Assembly: GCF_018598225.1 (NCBI RefSeq)
Contig: NZ_JAHESF010000048.1
Location: 1 to 51,374 of the forward strand
Length of the DNA stretch: 51,374 bases
Origin: Chryseosolibacter histidinae
GTDB taxonomy: Bacteria; Bacteroidota; Bacteroidia; Cytophagales; Cyclobacteriaceae
Direction: 5' to 3'
The notes under the pieces are model-generated. The model was not told the DNA's origin. It saw only the letters and a list, made by a program, of their open reading frames with translations, and did not search any database. Below are positions 1,451 to 50,690 of this stretch, one piece after another. Each line of letters begins with the position of its first letter. Position 1 is the first letter of the stretch. Position numbers and translations under genes: made by a program.

Positions 1451-1564
1451 AGACAGTTGACAATAGGGCAATTGACAACGACGCAGGCTCGATTGACATG
1501 TAACTGCTAATCATGACAATCCTTTGTCAATTGCTCCCGATAGGGATTGTCAATTGTCAACTGG
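1451..1564. repeat. Mirrored degenerate repeat, family AGTTGACAAT
   Basis: Left arm at 1451-1479 has units of GTTGACAAT and CAATTGACAA. Right arm at about 1524-1564 carries the reverse complement (GTCAATTG, ATTGTCAATTGTCAACT). The spacer between has no gene. It lies between the divergently transcribed amidohydrolase and the FAD/Fe-S dehydrogenase. A longer upstream reading of the dehydrogenase frame would start inside this repeat, which argues against that start. Confidence 0.75.
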
Positions 1565-1657
1565 ATTCACCCTAACGAAAGATCGGAAGCCTGCACTCCA
1601 TTTTATCTTGCTGGTAGTTCTTCATATTCATTGGCAAATCCGCTAGTTTTGAGGGTT

Positions 1658-4576
1658 ATGAATTTCGCCCGTTTAAAGAAGGATCTTGAAGGTGATCTCT
1701 TCACTGATGAAACCACCAGGAAATTATACGCTACTGACGCTTCTGCCTATCGTGAAATTCCTGTAGCCGTTGCTATTCCCAAAACTGAAGAAGACCTGGT
1801 GAAGCTGATCCGCTTTGCGCGCGAAAATAAAACGTCAATCATACCCCGTACAGCCGGCACCTCGCTGGCAGGACAGGTGGTGGGCGCCGGTATTGTGGTG
1901 GATGTCTCCAAACATTTCAACCGCATACTCGAGGTCAACGCCGAAGAAAAATGGGCGCGTGTGCAGCCGGGCATCGTACGCGACGACCTCAACCAACACC
2001 TGAAATCTTACGGTTACTATTTTGCGCCGGAGACCTCCACCGCCAACAGGGCCATGATCGGCGGCATGATCGGCAACAATTCATGCGGCTCCAACTCTGT
2101 GGTGTATGGCAGCACACGCGAGCACCTGCTCGAAGTAGACACCATTCTCGCCGACGGCAGCAAGGTGTGGTTTGGCCCGCTCACCGAACAGGAATTTTCC
2201 ACGCGCGTGAACAGCAACAACAGCACGCTGGAACAATCGCTCTATAAACACATTCACAACATGTTGTCGGATGCCGGCAACATACGCGAGATCGAAAAGG
2301 AATTTCCGAAGCATGCAGTACATCGGCGCAACACAGGTTATGCCATAGACATGCTCGCACGCATGCAGCCTTTCAACCGCGAAGGTCAACCTTTCAATTT
2401 CAGCAGCCTCATTGCAGGATCAGAAGGCACACTGGCATTTGTGACCTCGGCCAAGATCAGGCTCACGCCGCTTGAGCCCCCGCACAAAAAACTGGTGTGC
2501 ATCCATTGCCGCAGCATTGATGAGTCACTGCGCGCCAACCTCGTAGCCTTGCAGCATCGTCCCTCTGCCGTTGAGCTCATGGACCATTACGTGTTCGAAG
2601 CCACGAAACGTAACCTCGGCCAGGTGGAGAACCGGTTCTTTATTGAAGGCGACCCGCAGGCCATTCTCGTAGCCGAGCTCACCCGCGACTCCGTAGCCCG
2701 TGTGGATGCCGACGCAGCCGCCCTCATCGAAGACCTCAAACAGCAGGGACTGGGTTACTCCTACCCTGTTGTAGGTGGCGACGATATCAAAAAAGTATGG
2801 AACCTGCGGAAAGCTGGACTAGGACTTTTGTCGAATGTACCAGGCGATGAAAAACCGGTACCCGTGATAGAAGATACAGCGGTGGATGTGCAGGACCTGC
2901 CGGCTTACATTGCCGATGTGGGTGAGGTACTGAAGAAGCACGGGTTGTACAGTGTTCACTATGCGCATGCCGGCTCCGGCGAGCTGCACCTGCGGCCGAT
3001 CATCGACCTGAAAAAAACGGAAGGTGTAAAACTTTTCAGAACCATCGCCGAAGAGATCGCCACACTCGTAAAAAAATACAATGGCTCCCTTTCCGGAGAA
3101 CACGGTGACGGACGCCTGCGCGGAGAATTCATTCCGCAGATGATCGGTGAGCACAACTACAAGCTGATCAAAGACCTGAAACGTGTCTGGGATCCGGGCA
3201 ACATCTTCAACCCGGGCAAGATCGTGGACACGCCGCCCATGGACACATTCCTGCGTTTCGACAAAGGCCAGGTGACCAAAGAATTCGACACCATGCTCGA
3301 CTTCTCCGAAAACCTGGGCATCCTTCGCGCCGCAGAACAGTGCAACGGCTCAGGTGATTGCCGCAAGACCGAGATCAGCGGCGGCACCATGTGTCCGAGC
3401 TACATGGCTACACGCCACGAAAAAGATACCACCCGCGCCCGCGCCAACATCCTGCGCGAGATGATCACCCGTTCCGACAAGGCGAACTCGTTCGCCCATG
3501 AAGAGATCGCCGAAGTGATGGACCTGTGCCTGAGCTGCAAGGGTTGCAAATCCGAGTGCCCTTCGAACGTAGACATGGGCAAGCTGAAGCAGGAGTGGCA
3601 GTATCAATACTACAAGGAAAAGGGAGTGCCCTTCAGAAGCAGGATGATCGGCAATTTTGCGCTGGGCATGAAGCTGGCCTCCGCCATGCCGTGGGGTTAT
3701 CGCCTGGTGTTCGGCAACAAGGCCCTCGGTAATTTCGCGAAGTCGGTGATCGGTTTTGCGAAAGACAGGAGCATGCCGCACCTTTCGCCCGTAAGCTGGA
3801 AGAAATGGTTCACCACGCAATTCAAACCGGTAACGAAACAACCGCGTAAAACCGTTTATCTCTTCATCGACGAGCTGCTGAACTACAACGAAGCCGAGAT
3901 CGGCATCACCACGGTGAAGCTGCTGGACAAACTCGGTTATGGCATCAAAGTGCTGAATCATTACGACTCCGGCAGAAGTTTTCTCTCCAAGGGATTGCTC
4001 AAGGAGGCGCAGGCGCTGGCGCGCAAGAACGTAGCGCTGTACAAAGACCACATCACGCACGAAACACCGCTGGTAGGTGTGGAGCCCTCGGCCATTCTCA
4101 CGTTCAGGGATGAATATCCGGATCTGTTACGAGGTGCGGAGAAGGAAGCTGCGCTGAAAATAAGTCACCACACACTCATGATCGAAGAGTTCCTCTCCAA
4201 AGAGCTGGACGCGGGCAACATCGACCCGAAACTTTTCAAGGAGCAGCGCGCGCTGATCAAAGTACATGGCCATTGCCAGCAGAAGGCGCTTTCAACATTG
4301 ACACACGTGAAAAAGATCCTTACCCGGCTGGGCAACAACGAAGTGCACATGATCGCTTCCGGTTGTTGCGGCATGGCAGGTTCATTCGGATACGAGAAAG
4401 AACATTATGAGCTTTCGATGCAGATCGGCGAGCTCGTGCTTTTCCCCACCGTGCGCAAGCAACCTGAAAATGTGATCATCGCTGCTGCGGGCACCAGCTG
4501 CCGGCACCAGATCAAGGATGGCACGGGACGTAGGGCACAACATCCGGTGGAGATACTTTGGCAATCACTGCTTTGA
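1658..4576 (+). CDS. FAD-binding and Fe-S-binding 2-hydroxyacid dehydrogenase (GlcD/GlpC-type fusion, YdiJ-like)
   Basis: Protein of 972 residues from ATG 1658 (MNFARLKKDLEGDLFTD). The frame is open 37 codons further up, but that part runs through repeat DNA. Order of domains: FAD-binding type 4 (PRTAGTSLAGQ near residue 62, MIGGMIGNNSCGS near 133); FAD-linked oxidase C-terminal domain with the hallmark EHGDGRLRGEF near 481; a ferredoxin-like part with CNGSGDCRK and CLSCKGCKSECP near 623; and C-terminal CCG domains (HGHCQQKAL, SGCCGMAGS near 901). This is the single-chain architecture of E. coli YdiJ and bacterial D-lactate dehydrogenases. It should oxidise a D-2-hydroxyacid such as D-lactate or D-2-hydroxyglutarate and pass electrons through Fe-S clusters to the respiratory chain. 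The exact substrate is not decidable here. It appears monocistronic. Confidence 0.93.
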   Translation: MNFARLKKDLEGDLFTDETTRKLYATDASAYREIPVAVAIPKTEEDLVKLIRFARENKTSIIPRTAGTSLAGQVVGAGIVVDVSKHFNRILEVNAEEKWARVQPGIVRDDLNQHLKSYGYYFAPETSTANRAMIGGMIGNNSCGSNSVVYGSTREHLLEVDTILADGSKVWFGPLTEQEFSTRVNSNNSTLEQSLYKHIHNMLSDAGNIREIEKEFPKHAVHRRNTGYAIDMLARMQPFNREGQPFNFSSLIAGSEGTLAFVTSAKIRLTPLEPPHKKLVCIHCRSIDESLRANLVALQHRPSAVELMDHYVFEATKRNLGQVENRFFIEGDPQAILVAELTRDSVARVDADAAALIEDLKQQGLGYSYPVVGGDDIKKVWNLRKAGLGLLSNVPGDEKPVPVIEDTAVDVQDLPAYIADVGEVLKKHGLYSVHYAHAGSGELHLRPIIDLKKTEGVKLFRTIAEEIATLVKKYNGSLSGEHGDGRLRGEFIPQMIGEHNYKLIKDLKRVWDPGNIFNPGKIVDTPPMDTFLRFDKGQVTKEFDTMLDFSENLGILRAAEQCNGSGDCRKTEISGGTMCPSYMATRHEKDTTRARANILREMITRSDKANSFAHEEIAEVMDLCLSCKGCKSECPSNVDMGKLKQEWQYQYYKEKGVPFRSRMIGNFALGMKLASAMPWGYRLVFGNKALGNFAKSVIGFAKDRSMPHLSPVSWKKWFTTQFKPVTKQPRKTVYLFIDELLNYNEAEIGITTVKLLDKLGYGIKVLNHYDSGRSFLSKGLLKEAQALARKNVALYKDHITHETPLVGVEPSAILTFRDEYPDLLRGAEKEAALKISHHTLMIEEFLSKELDAGNIDPKLFKEQRALIKVHGHCQQKALSTLTHVKKILTRLGNNEVHMIASGCCGMAGSFGYEKEHYELSMQIGELVLFPTVRKQPENVIIAAAGTSCRHQIKDGTGRRAQHPVEILWQSLL

Positions 4577-4579
4577 AAT

Positions 4580-4706
4580 GTTGCCGGTTGCCAGTTGCCG
4601 GTTTCCGGTCTGGAGGGTGTTAACCTTCCTTGTCTGTGCTTCGATTCGAAACCAGCATGCTATGCCTGGACCTTACCAACCGGCAACTGGCAACTGGCAA
4701 CAAGAC
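4580..4706. repeat. Mirrored repeat element, family GGCAACTGGCAAC, with TGCTTCG core
   Basis: Left arm at 4580-4610 has units GTTGCCGGTTGCCAGTTGCC. Right arm at 4676-4706 is its reverse complement in style (CCGGCAACTGGCAACTGGC). GTGCTTCGAT lies at 4636-4645, 56 bp from the left arm start. The same plan recurs at 15040 and 23474. It lies directly after the dehydrogenase stop codon. Confidence 0.8.
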
Positions 4707-4837
4707 CCGTCGCTCCTTGCCAAGAACTACTTCTTCTCCAGCACCAGAATCACCTTATTGAAATCCGCCGCAGCATGGCGATCCGTATTCAGGGTATTGG
4801 TTGCGTGGAAAATCTTATCTTTACATAAACCCCAAGT

Positions 4838-6959: not shown

Positions 6960-6961
6960 CT

Positions 6962-7144: not shown

Positions 7145-7251
7145 CGAATCCTCATTCAACGCTGACCCATGCAACGAGGCCGCTCGTTATGGCCGCCAGT
7201 AAACGCTACCAGGTGGAATAAAAATTGAATGGTGAATCCTAAAACAAAACC

Positions 7252-7500: not shown

Positions 7501-7539
7501 CTCACCCATCATCGTTTTTTGCGGCTCAACTTACCCCAG

Positions 7540-7594: not shown

Positions 7595-7625
7595 GGAAGA
7601 ATTGTCAGGCCTTACCTACCAACGG

Positions 7626-7949: not shown

Positions 7950-8064
7950 GGTAACAGTGTTTTGCTCGCTCTCGCCCCTCTATTCATTTCTCAGCAAGTG
8001 GGGGATCGAGTATCTCAAGCAGAACAATATCGATTATTTGAAGGATCAGCAGCTTTATAAATAA
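7948..8064 (+). pseudogene. Possible remnant of a gene 3' end (protein-like tail SKWGIEYLKQNNIDYLKD)
   Basis: The plus frame ending at TAA 8062-8064 encodes a strongly protein-like tail, LSKWGIEYLKQNNIDYLKD, then QQLYK. The only in-frame ATG (7948) overlaps the start codon of the opposite-strand ABM gene, so an intact start is unlikely. I read it as the surviving C-terminus of a lost gene. The alternative is a real 38-residue peptide. I do not recognise the parent protein. Confidence 0.4.
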
Positions 8065-8174
8065 GTTGCCGGTTGCCAGTTGCCTGTTACCTGTTGTAGG
8101 TTTCCAGGTCCCAGGTGGAGGCAAAGTTTAAGGTTTTTAGTTTAAAGTTGCCTTCGATGGCCGGTGGTCGATGC
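8065..8174. repeat. Degenerate tandem repeats, families GGCAACTGG and GTTTAAAG
   Basis: 8065-8118 holds TTGCCGGTTGCCAGTTGCC and related units; 8126-8152 holds GTTTAAGG/GTTTAAAG units; then GGTCGATGCC/GATGCCCAATGCC units run into the 3' end of the MocR gene. There is no clear right arm, unlike at other loci. Confidence 0.7.
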
Positions 8175-9656
8175 CTAATTCCTGATGCCCAATGCCTCCA
8201 CTGATTTTGTCAATATCTCCATTGCCCTTTCCTGCTCCTTGATGTTCAGCGAGGCAAAACCCATGCGCGTAGCATTGAAGTTAGTGTTTGTATTGTAAAA
8301 TGAAGGGTCGGGTATGATCAGTCCTTTTTCGGCGGCCTTTGCGGCGATGCGTTTCAGGTTGGCGTTGTTGAACTTTGTCCATACTGACATGCCGCCATCG
8401 GGAATCTTGAATGATACATGATCTCCGAGCGCTTGCTGCAGCAGCCTACAAAAATGATCGCGCCGCTCACGGTAAAGTTTCACCACTTTTTTGATATGCC
8501 TGCCGATGGTGCCATTCCTGTACAACTGTGCAATGGCGGCTTCCATGAGGCTATCGCCTTGCCAGTCGATGGTCTTGCGGATATTGGCAATGGCATTGAT
8601 AAAATTTTCAGGCGCCACCACAAAACCCAGCCTGAAAGTGGGCGCCAGTGTTTTGCTCAGCGTGCCGATATAAATAATGTTGCCGTGGTGATCGAGGCTC
8701 GCCATGGGCAACACGGGATTGCTGGTGTAATGAAAGTCGTAATCGTAGTCGTCTTCAATGATGGCAAACCTGTACCGGGCCGCGAGCTCGAGCAAACGTA
8801 CGCGCCGCTCGGGCGTAAGCGTAACCGTGGTAGGGTGATGATGGTGCGGAATGACATAGAGCAGCTTGATCTTCTTTTTGGCGGTCAGCTTCGCGATAGC
8901 ATCCACGTCGATACCGAAGTCGTCAACGGGTACGAAGTTGATGTTGGCACCCAGCTGACGGAAGGTAAGGGTAGCACCGAAGTATCCCGGATCGCCTACG
9001 ATCACATGGTCACCAGGTTGTAAGAGCAGGCTGCCGGCGAGGTAAATGCCCATTTGTGCGCCACGGGTGATCATCACGTGCTGCGCGGAGATCGGAAGCC
9101 CGCGTGTATCGCTGAGAAACGAGGCCAGCGTCTCACGCAAAACGTCTGGGCCTTTGGGGCTGCCATAACCAAAAAGTGTTTTCGAGCTGCGTTGCTTCGA
9201 CAGGCTTCTCATCTCCCGGATAAAAAGCTCTGTGGGCGCAAGCCGTATGTCGGGGAATCCATCATTGATCACCAGCGCATTGGCTGCGATTGCGGACCTG
9301 AGCGGAAAAGGTGGAACGCGTTTTTCATCGATCTGAAAAAGGGTTTTCTCAGGATAAGGCGCCGGTCCCTGTTCCTGCAGTTTTTTCGGTTTGATCTCCG
9401 GCAGGTCATTTACCACAAACGTGCCCTTGCGGGGGACCATTTCAATCCATCCCTGCGCCATCAGCTCATCCAGGGCCGCGAGCATGGTCTTGCGGTGGAT
9501 CTTCAATAATGCAGCCATCTCCCTCGATCCCGGCAGCTTCAAACCCCGTCGGAGCCTGCCGTGACGGATGTGATGGATCAAAGCGTTGGCAACCTGCAAG
9601 TAAACAGGTATTTCAGAGGTCTTGTCGATCGAAATCGATTCCTTTAACACGATCAT
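8175..9656 (-). CDS. MocR-type regulator: GntR winged helix fused to class I aminotransferase
   Basis: Protein of 493 residues. Residues ~10-80 are a GntR-type winged helix (VYLQVANALIHHIRHGRLRR, LPGSREMAALLKIHRKTM). The rest is a fold-type I aminotransferase with IEDDYDYDFHY and the PLP lysine K335 in GTLSKTLAPTFRLG. MocR proteins (PdxR, GabR) bind DNA and sense PLP or an amino compound. This one is divergent from the CMD/cupin/EamA genes at 9739-11538, which it presumably controls, and a repeat operator begins one base upstream of its start codon. The last residues (EALGIRN) and the stop codon are encoded in repeat-like DNA. The ligand is unknown. Confidence 0.93.
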   Translation of the reverse strand: MIVLKESISIDKTSEIPVYLQVANALIHHIRHGRLRRGLKLPGSREMAALLKIHRKTMLAALDELMAQGWIEMVPRKGTFVVNDLPEIKPKKLQEQGPAPYPEKTLFQIDEKRVPPFPLRSAIAANALVINDGFPDIRLAPTELFIREMRSLSKQRSSKTLFGYGSPKGPDVLRETLASFLSDTRGLPISAQHVMITRGAQMGIYLAGSLLLQPGDHVIVGDPGYFGATLTFRQLGANINFVPVDDFGIDVDAIAKLTAKKKIKLLYVIPHHHHPTTVTLTPERRVRLLELAARYRFAIIEDDYDYDFHYTSNPVLPMASLDHHGNIIYIGTLSKTLAPTFRLGFVVAPENFINAIANIRKTIDWQGDSLMEAAIAQLYRNGTIGRHIKKVVKLYRERRDHFCRLLQQALGDHVSFKIPDGGMSVWTKFNNANLKRIAAKAAEKGLIIPDPSFYNTNTNFNATRMGFASLNIKEQERAMEILTKSVEALGIRN

Positions 9657-9701
9657 ATCTGGACTATCTTATTTGTACAATCTGGACTATTCAAGTAGTC
9701 C
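9657..9701. promoter_or_regulatory. Likely MocR operator: two direct ATCTGGACTAT copies and an inverted half
   Basis: ATCTGGACTAT occurs at 9657-9667 and again at 9680-9690, 23 bp apart, about two helical turns. An inverted half TAGTCC at 9696-9701 pairs with GGACTA at 9684-9689. MocR regulators commonly use such direct repeats. The site touches the regulator's own start codon and precedes the divergent operon, which suggests autoregulation together with control of 9739-11538. Confidence 0.75.
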
Positions 9702-9738
9702 AATAAAGATAGACATTTACAAAAACAAATAGAGAATC

Positions 9739-11538: not shown

Positions 11539-11650
11539 AAGTACGAGGTACGAAGGGTTTAGTCGTCGGACCACCACCCTGGCGCATTCCAGCGTAGTGG
11601 TCTGACGACGTTCATACTGCACGGCCGTGGACTGTCGACTGTGGACAACC
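11538..11650. repeat. Repeat patch with a 13-bp inverted repeat
   Basis: GTACGAGGTACGA at about 11541-11553 is followed by an inverted repeat, GTCGTCGGACCAC (11562-11574) against GTGGTCTGACGAC (11597-11609), with one mismatch. Then GGCCGTGGACTGTCGACTGT (about 11621-11640), of the GTGGACTGTCGAC family, follows. The hairpin lies just after the EamA stop and may end its transcript. Confidence 0.65.
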
Positions 11651-11714
11651 CACTTATTGCATGCGATTACTGTGCCTCATATGCACGTTGTGATCCCGGG
11701 ATTCTTCGCTTCGC

Positions 11715-13390: not shown

Positions 13391-14677
13391 GTGAAAAGCA
13401 ACCGATATACCCTCAAATACTGGATAGGAAAAATTCACCTTTGGCTTGGGCTCATCTCCGGGCTGATCGTGTTCGTCATTGCCGTCACCGGATGCATTTA
13501 CGCTTTTCAGGCGGAGATCCAGGACCTCATACAACCTTACCGTTTTGTTACCGCAAGAGACCAGGCGCTGATGCCTCCCTCTGCGCTGAAAGCCATTGCG
13601 GAAGAAGTGCTGCCCGGAAAAAAGATCCACGCCATATTATACGCCGGCGAGGGAAAAGCAGCACAGGTGATCTTCTTCAGCTTCGAGCCCGAATATTATG
13701 ATGTGGTCTACCTCGATCCCTACACAGGAAAAATTCTGAAAGTGAAAGACATGGAGGCCGATTTCTTCAACTTCATTCTCGACGGTCATTTCTATCTCTG
13801 GCTCCCTCCCACCATTGGTCAACCCGTAGTCGCAACGGCTACCCTGGTGTTTGTGGCCATGCTTGTAACAGGGATCGTTCTCTGGTGGCCGAAAAACAAA
13901 AGCGGCGCAAAACAACGGTTCACCATCAAATGGAATGCACGCTGGCGCCGCAAGAACTATGACCTTCACAATGTGCTAGGCTTCTACGCTTCGTGGATCG
14001 CCATCATCCTGGCTACCACGGGACTGGTATGGGGCTTTGAATGGTTCGCGAATGGCCTGCACGCCGCTGCCGGAGGAGAAAAATCACTGCTTTATGTCGA
14101 TCCTGTTTCTGACACTACAAACACCTACACCGGCAATATACCCGCCATCGACAAAGTGTGGCACCTCATGAGAAAGGAATACCCCGCTGCCAAGGTCATT
14201 GAGGTGCACGTGCCTGAATCAGACTCCACTTCCATCGCGGCCAACGCCAATCCCGATGACGGTACCTACTACCAGACAGACTACCGTTACTTCGATCAGT
14301 ACACTTTAAAAGAGCTACCAGTAGATCATATTTACAGTCGCTATGCCGAGGCCAGCGCTGCTGATAAGCTGCTGCGCATGAATTACGATATTCACACCGG
14401 CGCCGTGCTGGGACTACCGGGAAAGATCCTCGCCTTTTTTGCAAGCCTCATCTGCGCCAGCCTGCCGGTCACGGGAGTTAATATTTATTGGGGAAGGAGG
14501 AATAAGAAGGAAGCTAAGTTGAAACGGAAGGCGGAGAAGCGATCTAAAAAGAAGTCAGGAGCCAGAAGTCAGGAGTCAGAAGGGGCGATTCAAAGAAGTA
14601 AGGAGCAACCCTCCTTCGCCAAGGCTACGGCGGGCGAGGGAAGTAAGGAGACAATCCACGTAAAAATCGAAGAGTAA
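13391..14677 (+). CDS. PepSY-associated membrane protein (siderophore/iron reductase type)
   Basis: Protein of 428 residues from GTG 13391. The N-terminus (KYWIGKIHLWLGLISGLIVF) is the PepSY_TM signature with the first helix and its His. Further helices lie near residues 140-165 (PVVATATLVFVAMLVTGIVLWWPKN, shown in part), 195-215 (DLHNVLGFYASWIAIILATTG, shown in part) and 340-365. Periplasmic PepSY segments lie between them. Bacteroidota relatives act as inner-membrane ferric or siderophore reductases. The last ~40 residues (from about KKSGARSQESEG) are low-complexity and encoded by intergenic-type repeat DNA plus a palindrome, so they are probably a recent addition without function. Confidence 0.87.
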   Translation: MKSNRYTLKYWIGKIHLWLGLISGLIVFVIAVTGCIYAFQAEIQDLIQPYRFVTARDQALMPPSALKAIAEEVLPGKKIHAILYAGEGKAAQVIFFSFEPEYYDVVYLDPYTGKILKVKDMEADFFNFILDGHFYLWLPPTIGQPVVATATLVFVAMLVTGIVLWWPKNKSGAKQRFTIKWNARWRRKNYDLHNVLGFYASWIAIILATTGLVWGFEWFANGLHAAAGGEKSLLYVDPVSDTTNTYTGNIPAIDKVWHLMRKEYPAAKVIEVHVPESDSTSIAANANPDDGTYYQTDYRYFDQYTLKELPVDHIYSRYAEASAADKLLRMNYDIHTGAVLGLPGKILAFFASLICASLPVTGVNIYWGRRNKKEAKLKRKAEKRSKKKSGARSQESEGAIQRSKEQPSFAKATAGEGSKETIHVKIEE

Positions 14678-14730
14678 TGAGAAGCGAGGAGCCAACCGCT
14701 GCACCCAACTGGTAACCGGCAACTGGCAAC
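14556..14730. repeat. Repeat cluster invading a coding 3' end
   Basis: AGTCAGGAGCCAGAAGTCAGG (about 14563-14579, extended by like units), AAGTAAGGAG copies and a palindrome at 14609-14640 lie inside the PepSY gene's final codons. GAAGCGAGGAGCC and GGTAACCGGCAACTGGCAAC follow to 14730. The string AAAAAGAAGTCAGGAGCCAG recurs at 21873 with no coding function. In the palindrome, CCCTC...CGCC pairs with GGCG...GAGGG. Confidence 0.75.
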
Positions 14731-14790
14731 ATGCTACCGTTGCTTTGGCATAGTATTTATCCCTTTTGTGGTTAATCAACTGCAAATTTT

Positions 14791-15039: not shown

Positions 15040-15183
15040 GGTTGCCGGTTACCAGTTGCCGGGTGGCCAGTTGGAGCGGTGTTTAAAATCAAGTTCTATG
15101 CTTCGTATTACTTGAGGATAAGTCCGAAACGTGAAAGTCTGCCCCGTGCGAACCGGCAACTGGCAACCGGTAACTGGCAACCA
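15040..15183. repeat. Mirrored repeat element, family GGCAACTGGCAAC, with TGCTTCG core
   Basis: Left arm at 15040-15073 (GGTTGCCGGTTACCAGTTGCC and like units); TGCTTCG at 15099-15105, 59 bp in; right arm at 15151-15181 (AACCGGCAACTGGCAACCGG). It fills the gap between two convergent genes. Confidence 0.8.
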
Positions 15184-15200: not shown

Positions 15201-16844
15201 TCACTCCACCATCTTCGCTGTTACATAAAAGTTTTCGTCTACTACAATCGAGTCCCCCTTGATCTTTTCGGTTTTCCAGGTGGTGGCGGGATAGATGAAT
15301 TTGAAATTGTTCCGGCCGGCGGAGATCTTCACGGGCATGTCGAAACCTTCAACACAATTGGCCCAGCGGTACGTAAGCTTACCCTTAATGATCTTGTATT
15401 CCAGCTCGGGGATGCGGATGTCGCGCAGGTATTGATCGAAAACCTTGCTAAGGTTCTTTCCGGTTTTCTGGCTGATGAAATTCTCGATCTGCTTTCCTTC
15501 AACGGTCTGGTGATAAAAGGTCTTGTTCATGTCGCGCAGCACCTGGCGCCACTTCTCATCATTGTCCACGATCTGCCGGATGGTGTGCAGCATGTTGCCA
15601 CCCTTGGGATACATGTCGCCAGAACCACTTCTGTTCACATTGTAGGTGCCCACAATAGGCCTGTCATTACGGATACCTTTGCGCGTTCCGATCACATATT
15701 CCGCGCCCGCCTTCTTTCCGAAATAATACTCCGTGTACAAATTCTCCGAATAGTTGGTAAAGCTCTCGTGAACCCACATGTCGGCCATATCTTTATAGGT
15801 GATATTGTTGGCGTACCACTCATGACCCGACTCATGGATGATGATAAAATCCCATTTCAGTCCCCAGCCTGATCCCGAAAGATCTCTCCCGCGATAACCA
15901 TTTGTGTAACCATTGCCATAGGTGACCGAGCTCTGGTGCTCCATGCCGAGATAAGGTGTCTCCACCAGCTTGTAACCGTCTTCATAAAACGGATAAGGTC
16001 CGAACCAGTGCTCGAAGGCGCGCAGCATCAGCTTGGCTTGTTTGAATTGTTCTTTTGCTTTTTCAAGATTGGCGGGCAGCACATAAAAGTCGAGGTCCAG
16101 CACACCCTTTTCGCCGTGCAGGGTATCTGAAAAATGTGTGTATTTGGCGATGTTCACATTCACGCCATAATTGTTGATCGGATTGCTCACGAACCAGTCG
16201 AAGGTTTTGGTACCATCGTTGTTCACGGTCTCCCGGCGAAGGCGACCATTCGATACGTCGGTGAGGTTTTCCGGCACCGTGACGCTGATGAGCATGCTGT
16301 CAGGTTCGTCATACATATGATCTTTGCACGGCCACCACGCGCTGGCACCCAGTCCCTGGCATGAGGTTGCGATAAAATCATTTCCTTCGTTGTCTTTCGT
16401 CCACTGAAAGCCGCCCTGCCATGGCGGATTTTTCGCCACGATGGGATTACCGGAATAATAAACCACCACAGAACCGGTTTGATCTTTCTGCTGCGCTTTT
16501 TTCAATGCGATGAAGTAGGCGTTCGTTCCCGCTTTTTCGAAAGTAAGTGTCTCTCCATCCTGCGTTACCTTTTCGATCACCAGCGGCGGCTGAAGATCGA
16601 GCTGAAGGGTCTGGTAAGGCTTCAGCACCTTGTAATGAACAGCAACACTTCCTGAGAGCGCCTTCGATGCAGGATCAACCTTTACATTAAGGTGATAGTA
16701 GCGCAGGTCCCACCATTCACGCTCAGGTGTCACGGTCCCGCGCAAGGTATCATCTTTTGTAAGTGTACGCTGCTGCGCAAGAGAAGGCAACAAAAGACTG
16801 ATTGACAGTGCGGATGCCAGGAGGAAGGTGCGGAGGTATTTCAT
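15201..16844 (-). CDS. Secreted M1-family metallopeptidase (aminopeptidase N-like)
   Basis: Protein of 547 residues. The signal peptide is MKYLRTFLLASALSISLLLP, followed by SLAQQ. The N-terminal saddle domain includes YYHLNVKVDPASKALSGSVA. The GxMEN-type exopeptidase motif is present as GMEHQSS. The zinc site is complete: H337-E338-x-x-H341 in IHESGHEWYANN with the third ligand E360 (WVHESF). It lacks the long helical C-terminal domain of full-size aminopeptidase N, as is usual for shorter Bacteroidota M1 enzymes. It should trim peptides in the periplasm or outside the cell. Confidence 0.95.
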   Translation of the reverse strand: MKYLRTFLLASALSISLLLPSLAQQRTLTKDDTLRGTVTPEREWWDLRYYHLNVKVDPASKALSGSVAVHYKVLKPYQTLQLDLQPPLVIEKVTQDGETLTFEKAGTNAYFIALKKAQQKDQTGSVVVYYSGNPIVAKNPPWQGGFQWTKDNEGNDFIATSCQGLGASAWWPCKDHMYDEPDSMLISVTVPENLTDVSNGRLRRETVNNDGTKTFDWFVSNPINNYGVNVNIAKYTHFSDTLHGEKGVLDLDFYVLPANLEKAKEQFKQAKLMLRAFEHWFGPYPFYEDGYKLVETPYLGMEHQSSVTYGNGYTNGYRGRDLSGSGWGLKWDFIIIHESGHEWYANNITYKDMADMWVHESFTNYSENLYTEYYFGKKAGAEYVIGTRKGIRNDRPIVGTYNVNRSGSGDMYPKGGNMLHTIRQIVDNDEKWRQVLRDMNKTFYHQTVEGKQIENFISQKTGKNLSKVFDQYLRDIRIPELEYKIIKGKLTYRWANCVEGFDMPVKISAGRNNFKFIYPATTWKTEKIKGDSIVVDENFYVTAKMVE

Positions 16845-16889
16845 GGGTATATAGGTTCGGCATTAAGGTAGGAAAAAAAGCCAAGAGAA

Positions 16890-16993
16890 GGTACGAGGTA
16901 CGTCGCCCGCTGTAGCTTCGGTGTAGGCGTGAGGTACGATTAGATGACACCCGGTATGGCCATGGACTATGGACCATCGACTATCGACTCCTG
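16890..16993. repeat. Repeat patch: GTACGAGGTACG and CCATGGACTATGGACC units
   Basis: GTACGAGGTACG at about 16891-16902, then a CGCC...GTAGCTTCGGTGTA...GGCG palindrome-like core (16904-16929), GAGGTACGAT, and GCCATGGACTATGGACCATC from about 16958 with ATCGACTATCGACT to 16990. The end of the repeat supplies the last codons and stop of the DUF983 gene. Confidence 0.65.
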
Positions 16994-21872: not shown

Positions 21873-21960
21873 AGAAAAAGAAGTCAGGAGCCAGGAGTCA
21901 GTAGCCGGAAGGGAAGGTAGAATAGGAGTAAGGAGTAAGAATTAAGAAGTAAGGAGGTCA
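21873..21960. repeat. Tandem repeats AGTCAGGAGCCAGG and AGTAAGGAGTAAG
   Basis: AAAAAGAAGTCAGGAGCCAG starts at about 21875 and matches the string in the PepSY gene tail at 14556. GGAGTAAGGAGTAAGAATTA and AAGTAAGGAGG follow. No gene lies here. Confidence 0.7.
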
Positions 21961-22405: not shown

Positions 22406-22548
22406 GAGCGCTCGATAGTGGTTAAAGTTATCGACGATATACGAAAAAGAAATCGTGAAAGTTTAAAGATTGACGGAGAAAATTGGAGAATATGTTTGAA
22501 TGGCAGTGCCCGGTGACTGCTGAAGTGTTCGGTTTTGGGAATTAAATA

Positions 22549-22711
22549 GTCGATGGTCCATGGTCGATAGTCCATGGTTGGTATAGTGCAATACTACCTG
22601 TTTTGCCTGCGATCTCCTGGACCGCCGTAGCTTTTACGCCTTTGATGCTAGAGGCACGATAGTTAAAGTTCACACTGCACTGCTATGGACCATGGACTAT
22701 GGACCATCGAC
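22549..22711. repeat. Mirrored repeat element, family GGTCCATGGTCGATAG, with GTAGCTT core
   Basis: Left arm at 22549-22577 (CGATGGTCCATGGTCGATAG); GCCGTAGCTTTTACGCC at about 22624-22640; right arm at 22684-22711 (ATGGACCATGGACTATGGAC). The arms are reverse complements. It sits between the small protein start and the DUF1080 stop. Confidence 0.78.
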
Positions 22712-22717
22712 TTTGAA

Positions 22718-23338
22718 CTACTCAGGAAGTGGTTTCACCATCACATTCCTGTAATACACTTTGCTTTTCGGGTCGTGTCCCTGCAGGGCGAAGGTGCCGG
22801 AAGAGAGTCGGCTATCGTCGCCGGTGGTGTACTCATTCACGATCTCATCGTTCACTTTTACGGTGATCTTCTTTCCGCGCACGATGATCGATTGTGTGAA
22901 CCACTCATTGTCTTTGTGCGCCGGGATCTTGACATCCTGAACAGCGTAAATACTGGAAGTTTTGCGCCAGTCGGTGTGCGTGGCGTTCACCTGGATCTCA
23001 TAACCTTTGGAAGGCCATCCTGTTTCCTGGTAAGCGGTGTGAATGAACATACCGGAGTTGGAACCGGGCGTGGTCATCACGTCGGCCTTGAACTCGAAGT
23101 TCTTGAAGTTGTGATCCTGCACATCGCCCATGTAGAACAAATGAGCCCTGGTGCCATTCACAACGATCTTTCCGTCTTCAATGGTGAACGTTGCCGGGTT
23201 CTCGCTTGCTTTCCAGCCGTTGAATGTTTTGCCATCGAACAGGGTGATCCAGCCGTCTTTCTGTGCCTGTGCTGTCAGGGCTACGGTGATCATGATCAAC
23301 AGCGATAATGTGCCGCGTTTCAAAAATGCATTCATCAT
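22718..23338 (-). CDS. Secreted DUF1080 (3-keto-disaccharide hydrolase-like) protein
   Basis: Protein of 206 residues. A signal peptide ends at about TAQAQ. WITLFDGKTFNGWKASE is the DUF1080 opening motif; NFEFKADVMTTPGSNSGMFI, GYEIQVNATHTDWRK and SIYAVQDV complete the jelly-roll pattern. The family is abundant in Bacteroidota and Planctomycetota; some members hydrolyse 3-keto-glycosides. No partner genes for that pathway are adjacent, so the substrate is open. Confidence 0.9.
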   Translation of the reverse strand: MMNAFLKRGTLSLLIMITVALTAQAQKDGWITLFDGKTFNGWKASENPATFTIEDGKIVVNGTRAHLFYMGDVQDHNFKNFEFKADVMTTPGSNSGMFIHTAYQETGWPSKGYEIQVNATHTDWRKTSSIYAVQDVKIPAHKDNEWFTQSIIVRGKKITVKVNDEIVNEYTTGDDSRLSSGTFALQGHDPKSKVYYRNVMVKPLPE

Positions 23339-23473: not shown

Positions 23474-23618
23474 TTGGAACTGGTGGCCGGTTCCGGTGGC
23501 CGGTTTCGTTTCGGTATTAAAGTATCTTATAGTGCTTCGATCTTGGGATTGGAACTCTGCCGTGAAGACTGTGCACGTCTTAACCGGCTAGCTGGCAACT
23601 GGCAACCGGCGACCAGTT
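23474..23618. repeat. Mirrored repeat element, family GGCAACTGGCAAC, with GTGCTTCGAT core
   Basis: Left arm at 23474-23508 (GGTGGCCGGTTCCGGTGGCC), GTGCTTCGAT at 23532-23541 (58 bp in), right arm from 23582 (AACCGGCTAGCTGGCAACTG and like units) to about 23618. The 10-bp core is identical to that at 4636-4645. Confidence 0.78.
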
Positions 23619-23930: not shown

Positions 23931-23976
23931 ATGTCGCTTGAGATCTTCGTTCTTCGCCACCAAGGTATGGTAAAAA

Positions 23977-24043
23977 TACGAAGTACGATTTACGAGGTAC
24001 GAAGTGAGCTAGCCCGGTCTGCAGTCATCGTACCTCGTACCTC
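23977..24043. repeat. Mirrored repeat, family TACGAGGTACGA
   Basis: Left arm at 23977-24007 (ACGATTTACGAGGTACGAAG) and right arm at 24026-24043 (ATCGTACCTCGTACCTC) around an 18-bp spacer. The right arm overlaps the Lrp stop codon. Confidence 0.75.
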
Positions 24044-24536
24044 AAATCAGCTGATGTGTCTCCTTGATCACATCCATTACAAAGATACTTTTGGTCTGGC
24101 CGATACCTTTCACCTCGCTGAGGTAGTTGATGAAGAAGTGGTGGTAGCTTTCCATACTTTCGGAGACGATCTTCAGCATAAAGTCAAAGTCGCCGGAGAT
24201 ATTATAACACTCGATCACTTCCTTGAACCTGGTGATACCGGTCACAAAAGCCTGTGCTGTTTTTTTGTCGTGATCTTTCAGCGACACCTGGCACAACACC
24301 ATGATGCGTTTGTTCACCTTCCGGTTGTCGAGCAGCGCAGCATACTGTTTGATGATCTTGTGTTTTTCAAGGCGTTTGATGCGCTCATGCGTGGGCGTGG
24401 CGCTCAGGTGGATCTTCGCAGAAACTTCCCGCACGGTGAGCTTGGCATTCTCCTGGAGCAACCGCAGGATCTCGTAATCTTTTTCATCCATGACGAATGA
24501 AGACTGATCTTGTTCTGTTCCGTTGTGATCTGCCAT
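24042..24536 (-). CDS. Lrp/AsnC family transcriptional regulator
   Basis: Protein of 164 residues. The N-terminal helix-turn-helix is clear: YEILRLLQENAKLTVREVSA, KIHLSATPTHERIKRLEK. The C-terminal RAM ligand domain includes VTGITRFKEVIECYNISGDF and DFMLKIVSESMESY, with the GDxD-type turn. It is divergent from the MFS pump at 24662, which it may regulate; amino-acid export is a common target of such pairs. The effector is unknown. Confidence 0.93.
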   Translation of the reverse strand: MADHNGTEQDQSSFVMDEKDYEILRLLQENAKLTVREVSAKIHLSATPTHERIKRLEKHKIIKQYAALLDNRKVNKRIMVLCQVSLKDHDKKTAQAFVTGITRFKEVIECYNISGDFDFMLKIVSESMESYHHFFINYLSEVKGIGQTKSIFVMDVIKETHQLI

Positions 24537-34058: not shown

Positions 34059-34119
34059 GGTTATCGCAGGGATTGAACTGCTTCCTCCAGAGCTTGGTCA
34101 TCATGGGGCTTTGCCTAAT

Positions 34120-34217
34120 GCTAAAATACAAAAACACAAAGAACGCAGAGAAATGCAGGTAGTGCGCTGCGTAAAAAAACTTTGTGGGCTTTGCGCTTCT
34201 TAGCGGCTTTGCGTGAA
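34120..34217. repeat. Mirrored repeat, family ACGCAAAG/ACGCAGAGA
   Basis: Left part at 34124-34160 (ACAAAGAACGCAGAGAAATG), right part at 34178-34216 (TTGTGGGCTTTGCGCTTCTT, GGCTTTGCGTG). A second member is at 42507-42712. It lies between convergent genes. Confidence 0.7.
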
Positions 34218-36536: not shown

Positions 36537-36810
36537 AGATTCGAATGGTCCACGGTCGACAGTCCACAGTCCACGGCAGAACCACCCATGGAGCCGTCAT
36601 CCTGAACGGTGATGGGGCGCGGGCGGCTTGTGTGAGTGAAGGATCTCCCGATAAGCAATGTGCGCAGCATGAAACTGAGACACGAATTAAGTGCGCAGTT
36701 AATGATCGGGGGATCCTTCGTGCGCGAGCTTTCCGTTGAATGAGATTCAGCTCAGGATACCGGTTTCAGAAGGGAAGACTGTGGTCCGTGGTCCGTCGAC
36801 TGTGGACCTC
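36537..36810. repeat. Composite mirrored repeat with a nested palindrome
   Basis: Left arm at 36541-36580 (ATGGTCCACGGTCGACAGTC and like units), right arm at 36777-36810 (GACTGTGGTCCGTGGTCCGT and like units). Inside lies GAAGGATCTCCCGAT (36638-36652) against ATCGGGGGATCCTTC (36705-36719), 14 of 15 matching, plus GTCATCCTGAACGG. The 472-bp gap 36342-36813 has no gene otherwise. Confidence 0.78.
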
Positions 36811-39501: not shown

Positions 39502-39897
39502 ATGGTTGTGCTATATGTTGACGACGATCCGGAAGACCAGGAGATCTTTGCGGAAGTGATAAGGCAGATCGATTCTTCTATCATCCTGCTTTCAGCCAAG
39601 GATGGTGACGAAGCGCTGAGCATTCTCCGCAGCGATTTTATCGACCTTCCCCACATTATTTTTCTGGATATCAATATGCCCAGGATGGACGGCTACACCT
39701 GCCTCGCCGGTATCCGTGAAGATCTTAAGCTGAAAGACACGATCGTCATCCTATATTCCACTTCGCCCAACCCTTCGCTACTGGAGAAACACAAACACCT
39801 GAACGCGGAAGTCGTGAGCAAACCCACCTCGTATGGCGATGCCCTGGCCACCATGAAGCGATATATTATCGGTAATCAGGTAACCGGTGAACAGTAA
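39502..39897 (+). CDS. Stand-alone receiver-domain response regulator
   Basis: Protein of 131 residues. VVLYVDDDPEDQEIFAEVIR, HIIFLDINMPRMDGYTCLAG (phosphoacceptor Asp) and VVSKPTSYGDAL (Lys) define a receiver with no output domain. The final residues GNQVTGEQ and the TAA stop are encoded by the GGTAAC-type repeat, so the original end was probably near RYII. The partner kinase is not in the window. Confidence 0.9.
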   Translation: MVVLYVDDDPEDQEIFAEVIRQIDSSIILLSAKDGDEALSILRSDFIDLPHIIFLDINMPRMDGYTCLAGIREDLKLKDTIVILYSTSPNPSLLEKHKHLNAEVVSKPTSYGDALATMKRYIIGNQVTGEQ

Positions 39898-39976
39898 CCG
39901 GTAATCGGGTAATCGGTAACCGGTCATCAGTACAGCGCAACGCTTAAACTGATTACCGAATACCGATTACCGATTT
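39878..39976. repeat. Mirrored repeat, family GGTAATCGGTAACCGG
   Basis: Left arm at 39878-39928 (GGTAATCGGGTAATCGGTAA and like units), right arm at 39950-39976 (GATTACCGAATACCGATTAC). It overlaps the receiver gene 3' end and stops at the convergent DUF1624 gene. Confidence 0.78.
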
Positions 39977-42506: not shown

Positions 42507-42712
42507 ATACCGTTCACGCAAAGATCGCAAAGGAACCGCAGAGATCGCAGAGAATACTGGTAGTACTCATCTAATCTGTGCAGATCTGCTTAAATCACTT
42601 ATTCAATATTGCCGGAGAACGCAAAGCTTCGCTGACGCTCATTCACGGTAGCTCTAATGTCTCCGCGGCCCTCTGCAATTTCTTCGCGTCCTCCGCGGTT
42701 ATGCATTTCTGC
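42507..42712. repeat. Mirrored repeat, family ACGCAAAGATCGCAAAGG, with AAGCTTCGC core
   Basis: Left arm at about 42517-42553 (ACGCAAAGATCGCAAAGGAA, CGCAGAGATCGCAGAGA). AAGCTTCGCTGACGC is near 42624. Right arm at 42660-42705 (TCTCCGCGGCCCTCTGCAAT, CTTCGCGTCCTCCGCGG). It lies between the convergent pgeF and ABC genes. Confidence 0.75.
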
Positions 42713-42714
42713 AT

Positions 42715-45166: not shown

Positions 45167-45581
45167 GCCTGCAGCGGCTTGCGTTAACCGGAATAAGACT
45201 TTTATCATTCCTTTACCCGGTGAAAGTTTACGTCCACCCGACCGGGCAAACAGAATTCCGGACGGCCTAATCGTGAGCTTCACAGAAATACCAATGACAT
45301 CGGGCATATTTAGCATGTAATTCGCCGTACACTTCACAAGGTTTTCGAAACTGCTTTTACAGGCGAGCTGAAACAAGCTGCAATTCCTGGTAATGATACG
45401 CCCGAATAACGTCCAAACTTTCCGATGCCAATGGCAAAATTTTTGACGGGATATTCAACAGGGTGTAGACTTTTTTCAACGCTTTTACCTTGTTAACAGG
45501 GTCCATGCAGAAACAATCAAACCTTTGAATTATGGCATAATAATAACGGCAGTAATCGTTATTTAACACAAAACAAGTAAA
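45167..45581. other. 415-bp gap, possible small minus-strand frame
   Basis: A 49-codon minus frame (45357-45506) has a protein-like sequence (VNKVKALKKVYTLLNIPSKI) but no evident start site or partner. No repeat of the kinds seen elsewhere is present. The promoter of the four-gene run at 45582 must be near its right end. Confidence 0.35.
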
Positions 45582-46112
45582 ATGATGAACTCTATTCGAA
45601 ATTCGTTCCGGGTACATGCCATCGTGCTGCTATTGGCAGTGATGGTTTCCGCATTCGGCTGCAAGAGTAAAAAGAAGGCCATGGAAGCCGCGGCGGCCGA
45701 AAAGGCGAGAATGGAACAGGAGGCTGCCCTGAAAAGACAGCAGGAAGAAGAAGCACAAAGGAAAAGGGATGCTGAAGAGCAGGCGCGAAGAGATGCCGAA
45801 GCAGCGAAAGAAGCCAAGGGCAGTGCACCTTACGCCAGGCTTGGTCAGTATTTCGAATCGATTGCCAGCTCAGGCAGCCTGACCTCCGCTAACAGCAGCA
45901 TCAGCGAAGCCCTCACCATGTTTGCATCGCCCGATACCCCGGTGCTCATTGTGATCAGCGAATCAGGTGGCCAGAAAGATTATGACCGGCCCACCACCAT
46001 CATCTCGTACCTCAATTACCTGAAAGATCAGAAAAAGAACATCAATAAGATCGAGAAGCTTCAGTTCGACAGCTCAGGCAAGATCACGGAAGTAGAGCTC
46101 AGGAAAAATTAG
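45582..46112 (+). CDS. Lipoprotein with a charged coiled coil
   Basis: Protein of 176 residues. A lipobox is visible in AVMVSAFGCKSKKK. Residues ~28-75 are a Lys/Glu/Ala-rich coiled coil (AAAEKARMEQEAALKRQQEE and on). The C-terminal ~95 residues are globular (SAPYARLGQYFESIASSGSL, VLIVISESGGQKDYDRPTTI). It is the first of four same-strand genes ending in the LRR protein. The function is unknown; a periplasmic tether is plausible. Confidence 0.76.
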   Translation: MMNSIRNSFRVHAIVLLLAVMVSAFGCKSKKKAMEAAAAEKARMEQEAALKRQQEEEAQRKRDAEEQARRDAEAAKEAKGSAPYARLGQYFESIASSGSLTSANSSISEALTMFASPDTPVLIVISESGGQKDYDRPTTIISYLNYLKDQKKNINKIEKLQFDSSGKITEVELRKN

Positions 46113-46173
46113 TTCAAAGTTTGAGGTTTCAAGTTTAAGATTTAAGGTTAAAAGTTTAAAGTTAAAATCAAGT
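46110..46173. repeat. Degenerate tandem repeat, family GTTTAAAGTTTAAG
   Basis: Units such as GTTCAAAGTTTGAGGTTTCA, AGTTTAAGATTTAAGG and AAGTTTAAAGTTAAAATC fill the short gap between two co-directional genes and touch the upstream stop codon. A related patch is at 8126-8152. Confidence 0.7.
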
Positions 46174-46174
46174 T

Positions 46175-46759
46175 ATGCGTATCATTCAATATAAATATAT
46201 GCTCACGGCGATGGTCTGTGTTTTGGTTGCAGGAAACCTCTCGGCGCAGACCGGTGATATCAGCCCGGAAAGAAAACAGGCCATCGATTCACTTGCACTG
46301 GAAAAAGTGCGGGACCTGAGCAAGTACATCAGCATCATCGGCAACAAAAAAACCGCGTTCTCAGAAGCCAGCCGGGTAATGGACAGGGCCGAAGAGCTTT
46401 TTGCTCCCGGCAGCGAGATGGGTGTTTCATCGCTCAACCGGAAAGAAGTGAACTATTACAAGGTGCGCCAGTATTTCGAACGACTGATGGCGCTGAACTA
46501 TGACCGCGTGTCGATCCAGTGGTACGACATCCACTACATCAGTGACCTGGAAAGACAACCCGACGGACGGTACGTTGGCGTGGTCACCATCTACCAGCGT
46601 TTTGAAGGTGTGTCTGACGATGGCATGAAATACAAAGACACCACGAAAAAAGATATCACCATTTATGTAGACCGGAAAAAGACCCAGATAGCAGGCCGCA
46701 CCGTAGAGTTCTGGGACGTGCTGCTGGGGGATATCCGGGTGACGGAGACGGGAGCGTAA
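46175..46759 (+). CDS. Secreted protein of unknown function
   Basis: Protein of 194 residues. A signal peptide ends near NLSAQ. KVRDLSKYISIIGNKKTAFS, SLNRKEVNYYKVRQYFERLM and YVGVVTIYQRFEGVSDDGM suggest a SnoaL/NTF2-like or similar cone fold with a C-terminal strand (FWDVLLGDIRVTETG). It is second in the four-gene run and shares general style with the 46810 protein. No family is recognised. Confidence 0.74.
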   Translation: MRIIQYKYMLTAMVCVLVAGNLSAQTGDISPERKQAIDSLALEKVRDLSKYISIIGNKKTAFSEASRVMDRAEELFAPGSEMGVSSLNRKEVNYYKVRQYFERLMALNYDRVSIQWYDIHYISDLERQPDGRYVGVVTIYQRFEGVSDDGMKYKDTTKKDITIYVDRKKTQIAGRTVEFWDVLLGDIRVTETGA

Positions 46760-46803
46760 GCAGTAGGCAATAGGCAAATGGGCAGTAGGCAAATAATGCA
46801 GGG
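46757..46803. repeat. Degenerate tandem repeat, family CAGTAGGCAATAGGCA
   Basis: GCAGTAGGCAATAGGCAAAT then GGGCAGTAGGCAAATAATGC lie just after the stop codon. There is one orientation only. Confidence 0.7.
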
Positions 46804-46809
46804 ATATTC

Positions 46810-50230: not shown

Positions 50231-50268
50231 ACAGGGATGACATCCTTTTTGAAGGATGTCATCCCTGT
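50231..50268. terminator. Bidirectional terminator between convergent genes
   Basis: ACAGGGATGACATCCTT (50231-50247) pairs perfectly over 17 bp with AAGGATGTCATCCCTGT (50252-50268), with loop TTTG. It begins right after the LRR stop codon and overlaps the end of the globin gene. It should serve both genes, though T tracts are short. Confidence 0.85.
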
Positions 50269-50639
50269 TCGTCTCCCCTGTTCACCATGAACATGGCGGT
50301 GGGCACAAACCGTTTGAACAGCTCGTCTTTCAATGATTCATCAATGGCAAGGCTTGTGATGGCGGCTGACATACATGAGAGCCAGGCTACAGCATCGTCT
50401 TCACCAATGGGGTGTGGTATGTGGCGGGCGCGCAATCTCGGGTGACCATATTGCTCCGAATACAAAGGTGGCCCGCCCAGGAATTGGGTCAGGAATAATC
50501 GTTGCTTTTCCTTGATCACATTCTTATCTGTCTTGAACAAGGGAGCGATCTGCTCATTTGCAAAAACCAGGTCATAAAAACGGTCTACCAACAACCGCAG
50601 ATTCTCCTCGCCAAGCCGTTCAAAAATTGTAGGTTCCAT
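50259..50639 (-). CDS. Truncated haemoglobin, group II-like
   Basis: Protein of 126 residues from ATG 50639 (MEPTIFERLGEENLRLLVDR); upstream codons lie in repeat DNA. LFKTDKNVIKEKQRLFLTQF, GGPPLYSEQYGHPRLRARHI (proximal His region) and DAVAWLSCMSAAI, with Trp at G8, match the group II (GlbO/YjbI) type. It binds oxygen or nitric oxide in the cytoplasm. The small size is normal. Confidence 0.92.
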   Translation of the reverse strand: MEPTIFERLGEENLRLLVDRFYDLVFANEQIAPLFKTDKNVIKEKQRLFLTQFLGGPPLYSEQYGHPRLRARHIPHPIGEDDAVAWLSCMSAAITSLAIDESLKDELFKRFVPTAMFMVNRGDEQG

Positions 50640-50649
50640 GAGCGCAAAG

Positions 50650-50683
50650 GTAAGGCACGAGGTACGATTTACGAAGTGCGATC
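50650..50683. repeat. Repeat patch, family TACGAGGTACGA
   Basis: GGCACGAGGTACGATTTACG then AAGTGCGA, between the globin start and the SWIB terminator. It is related to 23977 and 16891. Confidence 0.65.
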
Positions 50684-50690
50684 TGGCCAC

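Follow-up and report, generated by a model that had tools for sequence, protein, structure and literature searches.

The contig of Chryseosolibacter histidinae analysed here (NZ_JAHESF010000048.1, 51,374 nucleotides, hereafter the window) carries many short tandem repeats, a number of them mirrored by a second arm in reverse complement. The repeats are real and genome-wide, and most of those listed in an earlier note on this DNA belong to a single class whose step is strictly 7 bp. A typical element is ~80-260 bp long, its core being flanked by two imperfect arms that face inward and hold a few 7-bp units each; the near arm lies directly behind a stop codon, with the GT-rich strand as the coding strand. 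We read these tentatively, at a probability of about 0.42, as small palindromic elements, of several families, that settle at gene ends directly behind stop codons and possibly form two-way gene ends. The window is one contig (C65) of an 8.04-Mb draft genome in 122 contigs. Counts refer to a 1.64-Mb sample of that genome, window included, except the first array count, which was made on 840 kb; genes were called with a simple custom open reading frame (ORF) script.

Step, pairing and placement of the heptamer arrays

In the first count, 139,894 intergenic bases held 218 arrays of period 7, compared with 3 in a dinucleotide shuffle of intergenic DNA. Periods 5, 6 and 8-13 gave 0-8 arrays each in the same DNA and period 15 gave 15; the 153 arrays of period 14 were read as double units of period 7. 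Density was 156 arrays per 100 kb in intergenic DNA vs 1.0 in coding DNA. The full sample contained 478 period-7 arrays, so that any genome-wide total is an extrapolation only. The short repeats at the 18 places of the earlier note are visible in the printed sequence. Their unit had been given as 8-14 bp and is instead 7 bp: period 7 was best or second-best at 16 of the 18, and apparent units of 13-15 bp were mostly two heptamers alternating at one or two positions. The fit to period 7 was weak at 1451, 11538, 16890 and 23474 (11-12 of 21 positions), and the place at 1451 precedes the first called gene and so lies outside the family scan described below. A degenerate repeat of ~13 bp period is seen near 23477. 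The two exceptions, 34120 and 42507 (CGCAAAG type), were fitted better by 8-9 bp; window positions 34117-34215 and 42515-42700 hold this second kind of mirrored repeat, inward-facing and with 8-9 bp spacing.

Nine unit families were distinguished, which bears out the claim of one architecture with differing unit sequences. The left-arm consensus units are A, GTTRCCR; B, GTTTRAR; C, GTACGAR; D, GTCSAYR; E, AGYMAGR; F, GGTAAYC; G, GGCARTA; H, RTTGACR; and I, AGAYRTG. Reversed DNA proved unsuitable as a control for the family scan, giving 202 hits vs 362 in real DNA at threshold 18, because a reversed heptamer array is still a heptamer array; it was replaced by the dinucleotide shuffle. The final scan found 711 arms in 936 intergenic gaps vs 10 in shuffled gaps, and the predicted enrichment over shuffled DNA was thus supported by arrays and arms alike.

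Adjacent arms faced inward in 244 cases, outward in 9 and in the same direction in 93. Among the inward pairs no more than 220 bp apart, 208 of 243 joined arms of the same family (permuted mean 38, maximum 54), and the 208 same-family pairs in real gaps compare with 0 in shuffled gaps. When families were left aside, an inverted partner lay within 260 bp at 129 of 199 arrays, vs 0 for shuffled arrays. Forward and reverse matches to single patterns were balanced across the genome (A 172/171, C 247/246, overlapping matches counted apart). Core length is family-typical, with median spacers of 103 bp in G, 91 in H, 88 in E, 86 in A and 75 in D, and of 29 bp in I, 26 in B, 22 in C and 17 in F, all with long tails. 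In the window itself, 14 intergenic regions hold arms by the family scan; the second, reverse-complement arm claimed for many places is present as an inward neighbour pair (+ then -) in nine of them, and three of the nine mix families (7950-8174, 11539-11714 and 16734-16980). The proposed co-variation of arms held only for D, where the two arms of one element were more alike than random same-family arms (z +3.2); they were less alike in A (z -4.0), B (-3.8) and F (-2.0), and neutral in C and E.

The claimed placement at gene 3' ends was upheld. A sense arm lay within 15 bp of the stop codon at 305 of 904 3' ends (gaps of at least 30 bp), vs any arm within 15 bp of the start at 35 of 968 5' ends; counts made independently of families were 218/904 and 27/968. 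Arms therefore occur at between a quarter and a third of the gene 3' ends sampled. Array density was highest in convergent gaps (3.22/kb) and lowest in divergent gaps (0.77/kb). Arrays in convergent gaps were in sense to the nearest stop in 124 of 130 cases, with 6 antisense, and in codirectional gaps 103 of 133 sense arrays began within 20 bp of the upstream stop vs 6 of 145 antisense arrays. All 70 convergent gaps with a pair had at least one element edge within 10 bp of a gene end or overlapping it, and 53 of these 70 were filled from stop to stop by the same measure at both edges. For codirectional elements, the median distance to the upstream stop was 1 bp and that to the following start 77 bp. 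On the coding strand of 239 arrays, chosen as adjoining a stop or by the nearest stop in convergent gaps, GT occurred 954 times vs 393 for AC.

A site with a hairpin and T-tract was found in 13 of 69 convergent gaps with a pair vs 20 of 50 without an arm (Fisher p 0.013); gaps with a single arm, outside that test, gave 12 of 34. Elements therefore stand where terminators would be expected in convergent gaps, and may act as two-way gene ends. By this measure they do not look like intrinsic terminators themselves, since 13/69 does not exceed the background of the terminator scan in divergent gaps without arms (34/133). Codirectional gaps showed no terminator deficit with a pair (25 of 136 with, 59 of 358 without). 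A role at 3' ends, which the earlier note had suggested, is favoured by the deficit in convergent gaps and is to that extent possible only. Cores of H (-2.4) and G (-1.7) folded better than control intergenic DNA (-0.45). Structured RNA in the core was considered and rejected, given the folding of A, D and E cores reported below, and Rfam gave no match in the window.

Elements of the window and their counterparts elsewhere

Table 1. Heptamer arms, arrays and elements located in the window
Feature	Position	Strand	Arms and context
A element (GTTRCCR)	4580..4701		left arm 4580-4609, core 4610-4676, right arm 4677-4701
A, B and G-type arms	8064..8197		A arm 8064-8117, B arm 8123-8149, G-type minus arm 8172-8197; 3' end of gene 8175-9656 (-)
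Mixed pair	11539..11646		C arm 11539-11555 (+), D arm 11622-11646 (-); between convergent genes
E array (AGYCAGR)	14550..14582	+	within last part of ORF 13391-14677
A arm	14706..14739	-	
A element	15040..15182		left arm 15040-15065, right arm 15151-15182; between convergent genes
Mixed pair	16889..16989		C arm 16889-16902 (+), D arm 16960-16989 (-)
Two E arms	21878..21956	+	
D element (GTCSAYR)	22546..22720		arms 22546-22578 and 22683-22720
A arm	23589..23617	-	
C element (GTACGAR)	23974..24043		arms 23974-24005 and 24028-24043; reaches stop of gene 24042-24491 (-)
Long D element	36545..36808		arms 36545-36576 and 36777-36808; 200-bp core from a dispersed repeat family
F element (GGTAAYC)	39879..39975		arms 39879-39932 and 39948-39975; stop to stop between convergent genes
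B array (GTTTRAR), single arm	46111..46167	+	directly 3' of stop, between two co-directional genes kept in relatives
G array (GGCARTA), single arm	46756..46792	+	directly 3' of stop codon
C arm	50653..50681	+	

The nearest of 245 genomes drawn from the taxonomic family share ~79% identity in an RND pump gene. At equal score this genome had 51 period-7 arrays per 200 kb, compared with 5 in 200 kb of G172, 3 in 60 kb of G191, 0 in 80 kb of G186 and 0 in 60 kb of G146; sequence comparison of this kind shows the elements to be largely particular to this lineage. Two sites speak for gain, as the preferred reading expects. At 46112 four relatives keep both genes with no array and a gap of ~20-30 bp (two align weakly; the piece of a fifth did not cover the site). 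At 46759 five relatives have the same two genes, no array and an apparent ATGA stop/start overlap, the start choice in relatives being taken from the printed sequence. The A element at 4580 begins 3 bp past the stop of gene 1658-4576; three orthologs end near the same point, and other DNA follows their stop. Behind gene 8175-9656, the A and B arms of this genome correspond to E arrays in G191 and G172, with a weak alignment at the end. Matches of ORF 13391-14677 to five relatives stop at 14493-14510, short of the E array, through which the ORF apparently reads, so that the array possibly encodes part of a novel protein tail.

Of 58 other genomes, 10 had matches to the C pattern, which were strong in G038 and G020 alone; both congeners had none. 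An inverted partner accompanied other period-7 units at 10 of 13 arrays in G002 and 4 of 9 in G018, and period-7 arrays at 2 of 2 in G191, 1 of 2 in G172, 0 of 1 in G003 and 0 of 1 in G011. G002 and G018 hence combine different period-7 units with the same mirrored design. The A pattern was found in at least 80 named loci from many phyla; 10 of the 80 listed had an inward A-type pair, and the spacers of the two Acidobacteriaceae loci among these measured 84 and 85 bp. Outside the matched stretches, these 80 loci held 52 further period-7 arrays vs 1-10 at each of seven other periods. In the Hymenobacter loci L118 (1590-1786) and L121 (3862-4040), A arms flank a different long palindrome of GTCATTCAGAGC / GTCATCCTGAGC type, which resembles part of the long D cores of this genome. 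Elsewhere in the latter (G000, C26 31069-31223 and 34827-34980), two elements both adjoin genes that are missing from the corresponding place in G172 and G191, and elements may mark synteny breaks.

Two further repeats of the window are of other kinds. About two copies of a 23-bp direct repeat at 9657-9704, which looks like an operator, lie just upstream of a divergent gene and of gene 8175-9656, a GntR/aminotransferase gene that we take to be of MocR type. The 24-bp repeats at 50999-51115 are coding and lie inside gene 50753-51118, likely as a repetitive protein tail.

Cores, arm asymmetry and enzyme searches

Among 182 cores of at least 30 bp, 42 matched another core (54 pairs, E < 1e-3; some matches span less than 40 bases or join different families), and no flank similarity was found in the best 40 core-matching pairs. 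All seven strongly related A pairs lay within 25 kb of each other, vs 64 of 1596 A pairs overall; the seven represent four neighbourhoods, two of which hold against the whole 1.64-Mb check. In one (C34 120369/123226/124360), the cores are shared among the three elements with no match elsewhere in 1.64 Mb, and the alignment of 120369 and 123226 runs arm to arm. In the other (C11 218510/220044), the shared core was likewise not found elsewhere in 1.64 Mb. Comparison of 14 flanking genes gave a sole related pair (~27% identity), which joins two different neighbourhoods. The alignments thus show copying of whole elements, with their arms and without flanks, to neighbouring gene ends for five A elements in two places. 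The statement that this is not simple copying of one element fits the several families and the many unmatched cores, and gives way at these two places.

Three other sets of shared cores were rejected as element copying, namely C32 49868/56307/60381, C34 137966/139811 and the long D elements, as the pieces also occur outside detected arm pairs. These long-D and two A-group cores are shown by such copies to be separate dispersed repeats that also exist without arms, and are therefore taken as nested between the arms. The long D element had at least 37 matches in its own genome, 27 of them (itself included) extending beyond an arm and 10 confined to an arm, among the 40 of 296 candidates that were scored; there were 0 matches in ten other genomes. 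The C32 piece holds a CGGAAG..CTTCCG palindrome of the type found beside a Y1 transposase gene on C63, where such palindromes adjoin that gene (L301 2200-2530). Such palindromes lay inside paired heptamer elements in 4 of 21 cases in 1.64 Mb and are a separate system, similar to repetitive extragenic palindromic (REP) sequences, that nests in heptamer elements.

Family A elements have a marked anatomy. The commonest form has four heptamers on one arm, and on the other three followed by an 8-nt variant unit (type G[AG]T[AG]GCC[AG]) before the core. Of 52 elements, 25 carried this variant (28 under a looser pattern), in each case on a single arm. The variant is missing from the element at 4580, and the left arm of that at 15040 runs into the variant unit GGTGGCCA. 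That it never occupies both arms is only suggestive, 3-4 double cases being expected by simple arithmetic. The one-sided variant gives the A element a direction, and may explain the poor match between the two arms of one A element (z -4.0). A comparable asymmetry in D is doubtful: of 50 D elements, 14 had neither end type, 6 carried one type on each arm and 0 had the same type in both. A motif G[GA]TGT near the inner ends of A arms (22 of 104 ends vs 17 of 329 background gaps) was a weak signal.

Among the 1198 ORFs of the 1.64 Mb sampled from the 8.04-Mb draft assembly, no transposase was repeated. The surroundings of the four Y1 matches in this genome were read. Three had no period-7 array nearby; the fourth had one C pair ~200 bp to one side and other palindromes on the other side. 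A link to REP sequences and their associated Y1 transposases (REP-associated tyrosine transposases, RAYTs) was not supported, as heptamer elements do not flank the four Y1 genes examined. Other Y1 transposase genes (G000 C45 122000-129000, L269 1201-1990) stand beside palindromes of GCAAGTCTTC and GCCCTTTCAGGGC type. Identity with integron attC sites was rejected, since no integron integrase exceeded the TIGR02249 cut-off in 8 genomes, this one included.

Origin of the elements and comparison with known repeats

Under the preferred reading, the elements would spread as mobile palindromes and survive behind stop codons, where a hairpin would be harmless and could replace a two-way terminator or an mRNA 3' end; the remainder of the old gap would be lost after the element takes over. 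The 7-bp step and the one-sided variant unit would be recognition marks of a copying enzyme, perhaps acting on a single-stranded hairpin. Different unit sequences would correspond to different families, and every genome would amplify its own set.

Several results weigh against this reading. No copying enzyme could be tied to the elements, and 208 pairs showed no target-site duplication (mean shared flank 3.47 vs 3.36 shuffled, edges being approximate). As many as 140 of the 182 cores matched no other core, and most of the core similarity that exists is not element copying, four D cores having 12-21 matches outside vs 4-7 inside arm pairs. The asymmetry of A was independent of transcription direction (10 stop-side, 7 far), and stop-to-stop filling exceeds what plain insertion predicts. 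Cores of A, D and E folded no clearly better than other intergenic DNA (-0.48, -0.72 and -0.14; control -0.45). A terminator would also be odd at the single arms 46111 and 46756, because these lie within an apparent operon, which argues that at least there the elements probably do not terminate transcription. Our confidence was lowered from 0.5 to 0.42 because shared cores also lie outside arm pairs; the slippage and arm-writing readings set out below gained slightly by the same result.

An unlikely alternative is that the elements are native 3'-end signals, long immobile hairpins selected for termination or mRNA stability and homogenised by gene conversion. Stop-codon anchoring, the deficit of intrinsic terminators and the rarity between divergent genes all suit it. 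A purely native signal is insufficient because the arms are absent behind the same genes in relatives; arms are also present inside an apparent operon, those of one element do not co-vary in A, B and F, and the asymmetric A arm has no stop-side bias. We give still less credit to a mutational origin, by 7-nt polymerase slippage and a hairpin-templated repair that would make inverted pairs of the arrays, with the stop-codon position reflecting tolerance only. Period 7 recurs with other units in many genomes (the 52 arrays in 80 loci; G002 and G018), most cores are unrelated, and Mrazek's idea of 7-nt slippage is reported in the available parts of PMC4679880 and PMC4692102. Against it, a small set of unit families returns hundreds of times, as the A and C counts show, whole A elements were copied in two places, and A has a one-sided variant unit; slippage alone is insufficient because it leaves the families, spacers and pairing unexplained.

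Binding arrays for a protein with a 7-nt step (cold-shock, S1-type RNA-binding or nucleoid) on mRNA 3' ends or DNA seem improbable to us. The strict step with free sequence and the GT-rich strand towards the stop agree with such a protein, as does the heptamer binding of Bacillus CspB cited in the part of PMC4679880 available; inward pairing and family-typical spacers are left unexplained by it. Very remote is the idea of attC-like recombination sites for single-stranded DNA, with genes gained alongside as cassettes. It would account for a stop adjoining an imperfect palindrome whose centre varies and which has an extra base on one side, and for the two C26 elements beside genes absent at that place from G172 and G191; the lack of an integrase over the curated cut-off and the dispersal of elements in all orientations oppose it. 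The exact step of 7 with free sequence, the arms round unrelated cores and the stop-to-stop filling are unaccounted for by the simplest reading, that of mobile gene-end elements with some copying of whole elements and with other repeats often nested between the arms. An unlikely reading, and the most novel one, is a stop-anchored process not described before, in which a 7-nt-stepping enzyme writes matching inward arms at the gap edges round any core, frequently another repeat, or copies a whole element to the next gap. Step and inward design would then be fixed, and the unit sequence would be free and differ by genome. If this reading is true, a single type of machinery would have produced the heptamer repeats of several phyla.

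Having nine families of one design in one genome makes the rules separable from the sequence, namely the step of 7, inward pairs, the GT-rich strand towards the stop, family spacers, the one-sided variant and stop-to-stop filling. The choice between slippage, mobile element and gene-end signal becomes a testable question, which may yield a copying enzyme and a non-classical two-way gene end.

Miniature inverted-repeat transposable elements (MITEs) are small, non-autonomous and have inverted ends. Unlike MITEs, the elements here showed no target-site duplication, and no matching transposase was found in the 1.64 Mb sampled; MITE-like copying without flanks applies to the two A groups (5 elements) only, other shared cores lying also outside arm pairs. 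A literature search that covered few subscription papers found no earlier description of the mirrored design. REPs, described as palindromes of 20-40 bp with tagged ends (PMC3733652, PMC1525189), and the bacterial interspersed mosaic elements (BIMEs) built on them resemble our elements as many imperfect palindromes outside genes. They are not known to have heptamer arms; REP-like palindromes occur here as guests in some cores. The bacterial tandem repeats of constant size and variable sequence (52 or 20-21 nt) of Subirana and Messeguer (2021, PMC8161180) share several families per genome and a fixed unit length with free sequence, differ in size, and are presented in the accessible part of that paper with no mention of mirrored stop-codon pairs.

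The closest known repeats are the heptamers of Xanthomonas, Nostoc and Beggiatoaceae, which are known without an agreed explanation. The TAACTGA repeats of Beggiatoaceae, cyanobacteria and some Bacteroidetes (MacGregor 2015, PMC4679880) are likewise heptamer direct repeats, mostly intergenic and patchy across phyla; as far as the available portion describes them, they differ in being one sequence and, in the main genome, direct repeats mostly just upstream of starts. None of our nine consensus units contains the GGG run of a GGGANTN-type G-quadruplex unit, no quadruplex scan having been made. The G-rich repeats of Xanthomonas (GGGAATC, mostly in sets of four units) and Nostoc (GGGGAYT) are described by Rehm et al. 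(2015, PMC4692102), according to the part of the paper available, as intergenic 7-bp units, under-represented between divergent genes, with the G-rich strand coding, mostly 0-50 bp past the stop and some inverted. Our elements agree in their unit of exactly 7 bp, intergenic position, sense orientation close behind the stop and rarity between divergent genes. Unlike those repeats, of which the available text treats one unit type per genome, they comprise nine families with family-typical spacers, occur mostly as inward pairs that fill gaps from stop to stop, and use units without GGG.

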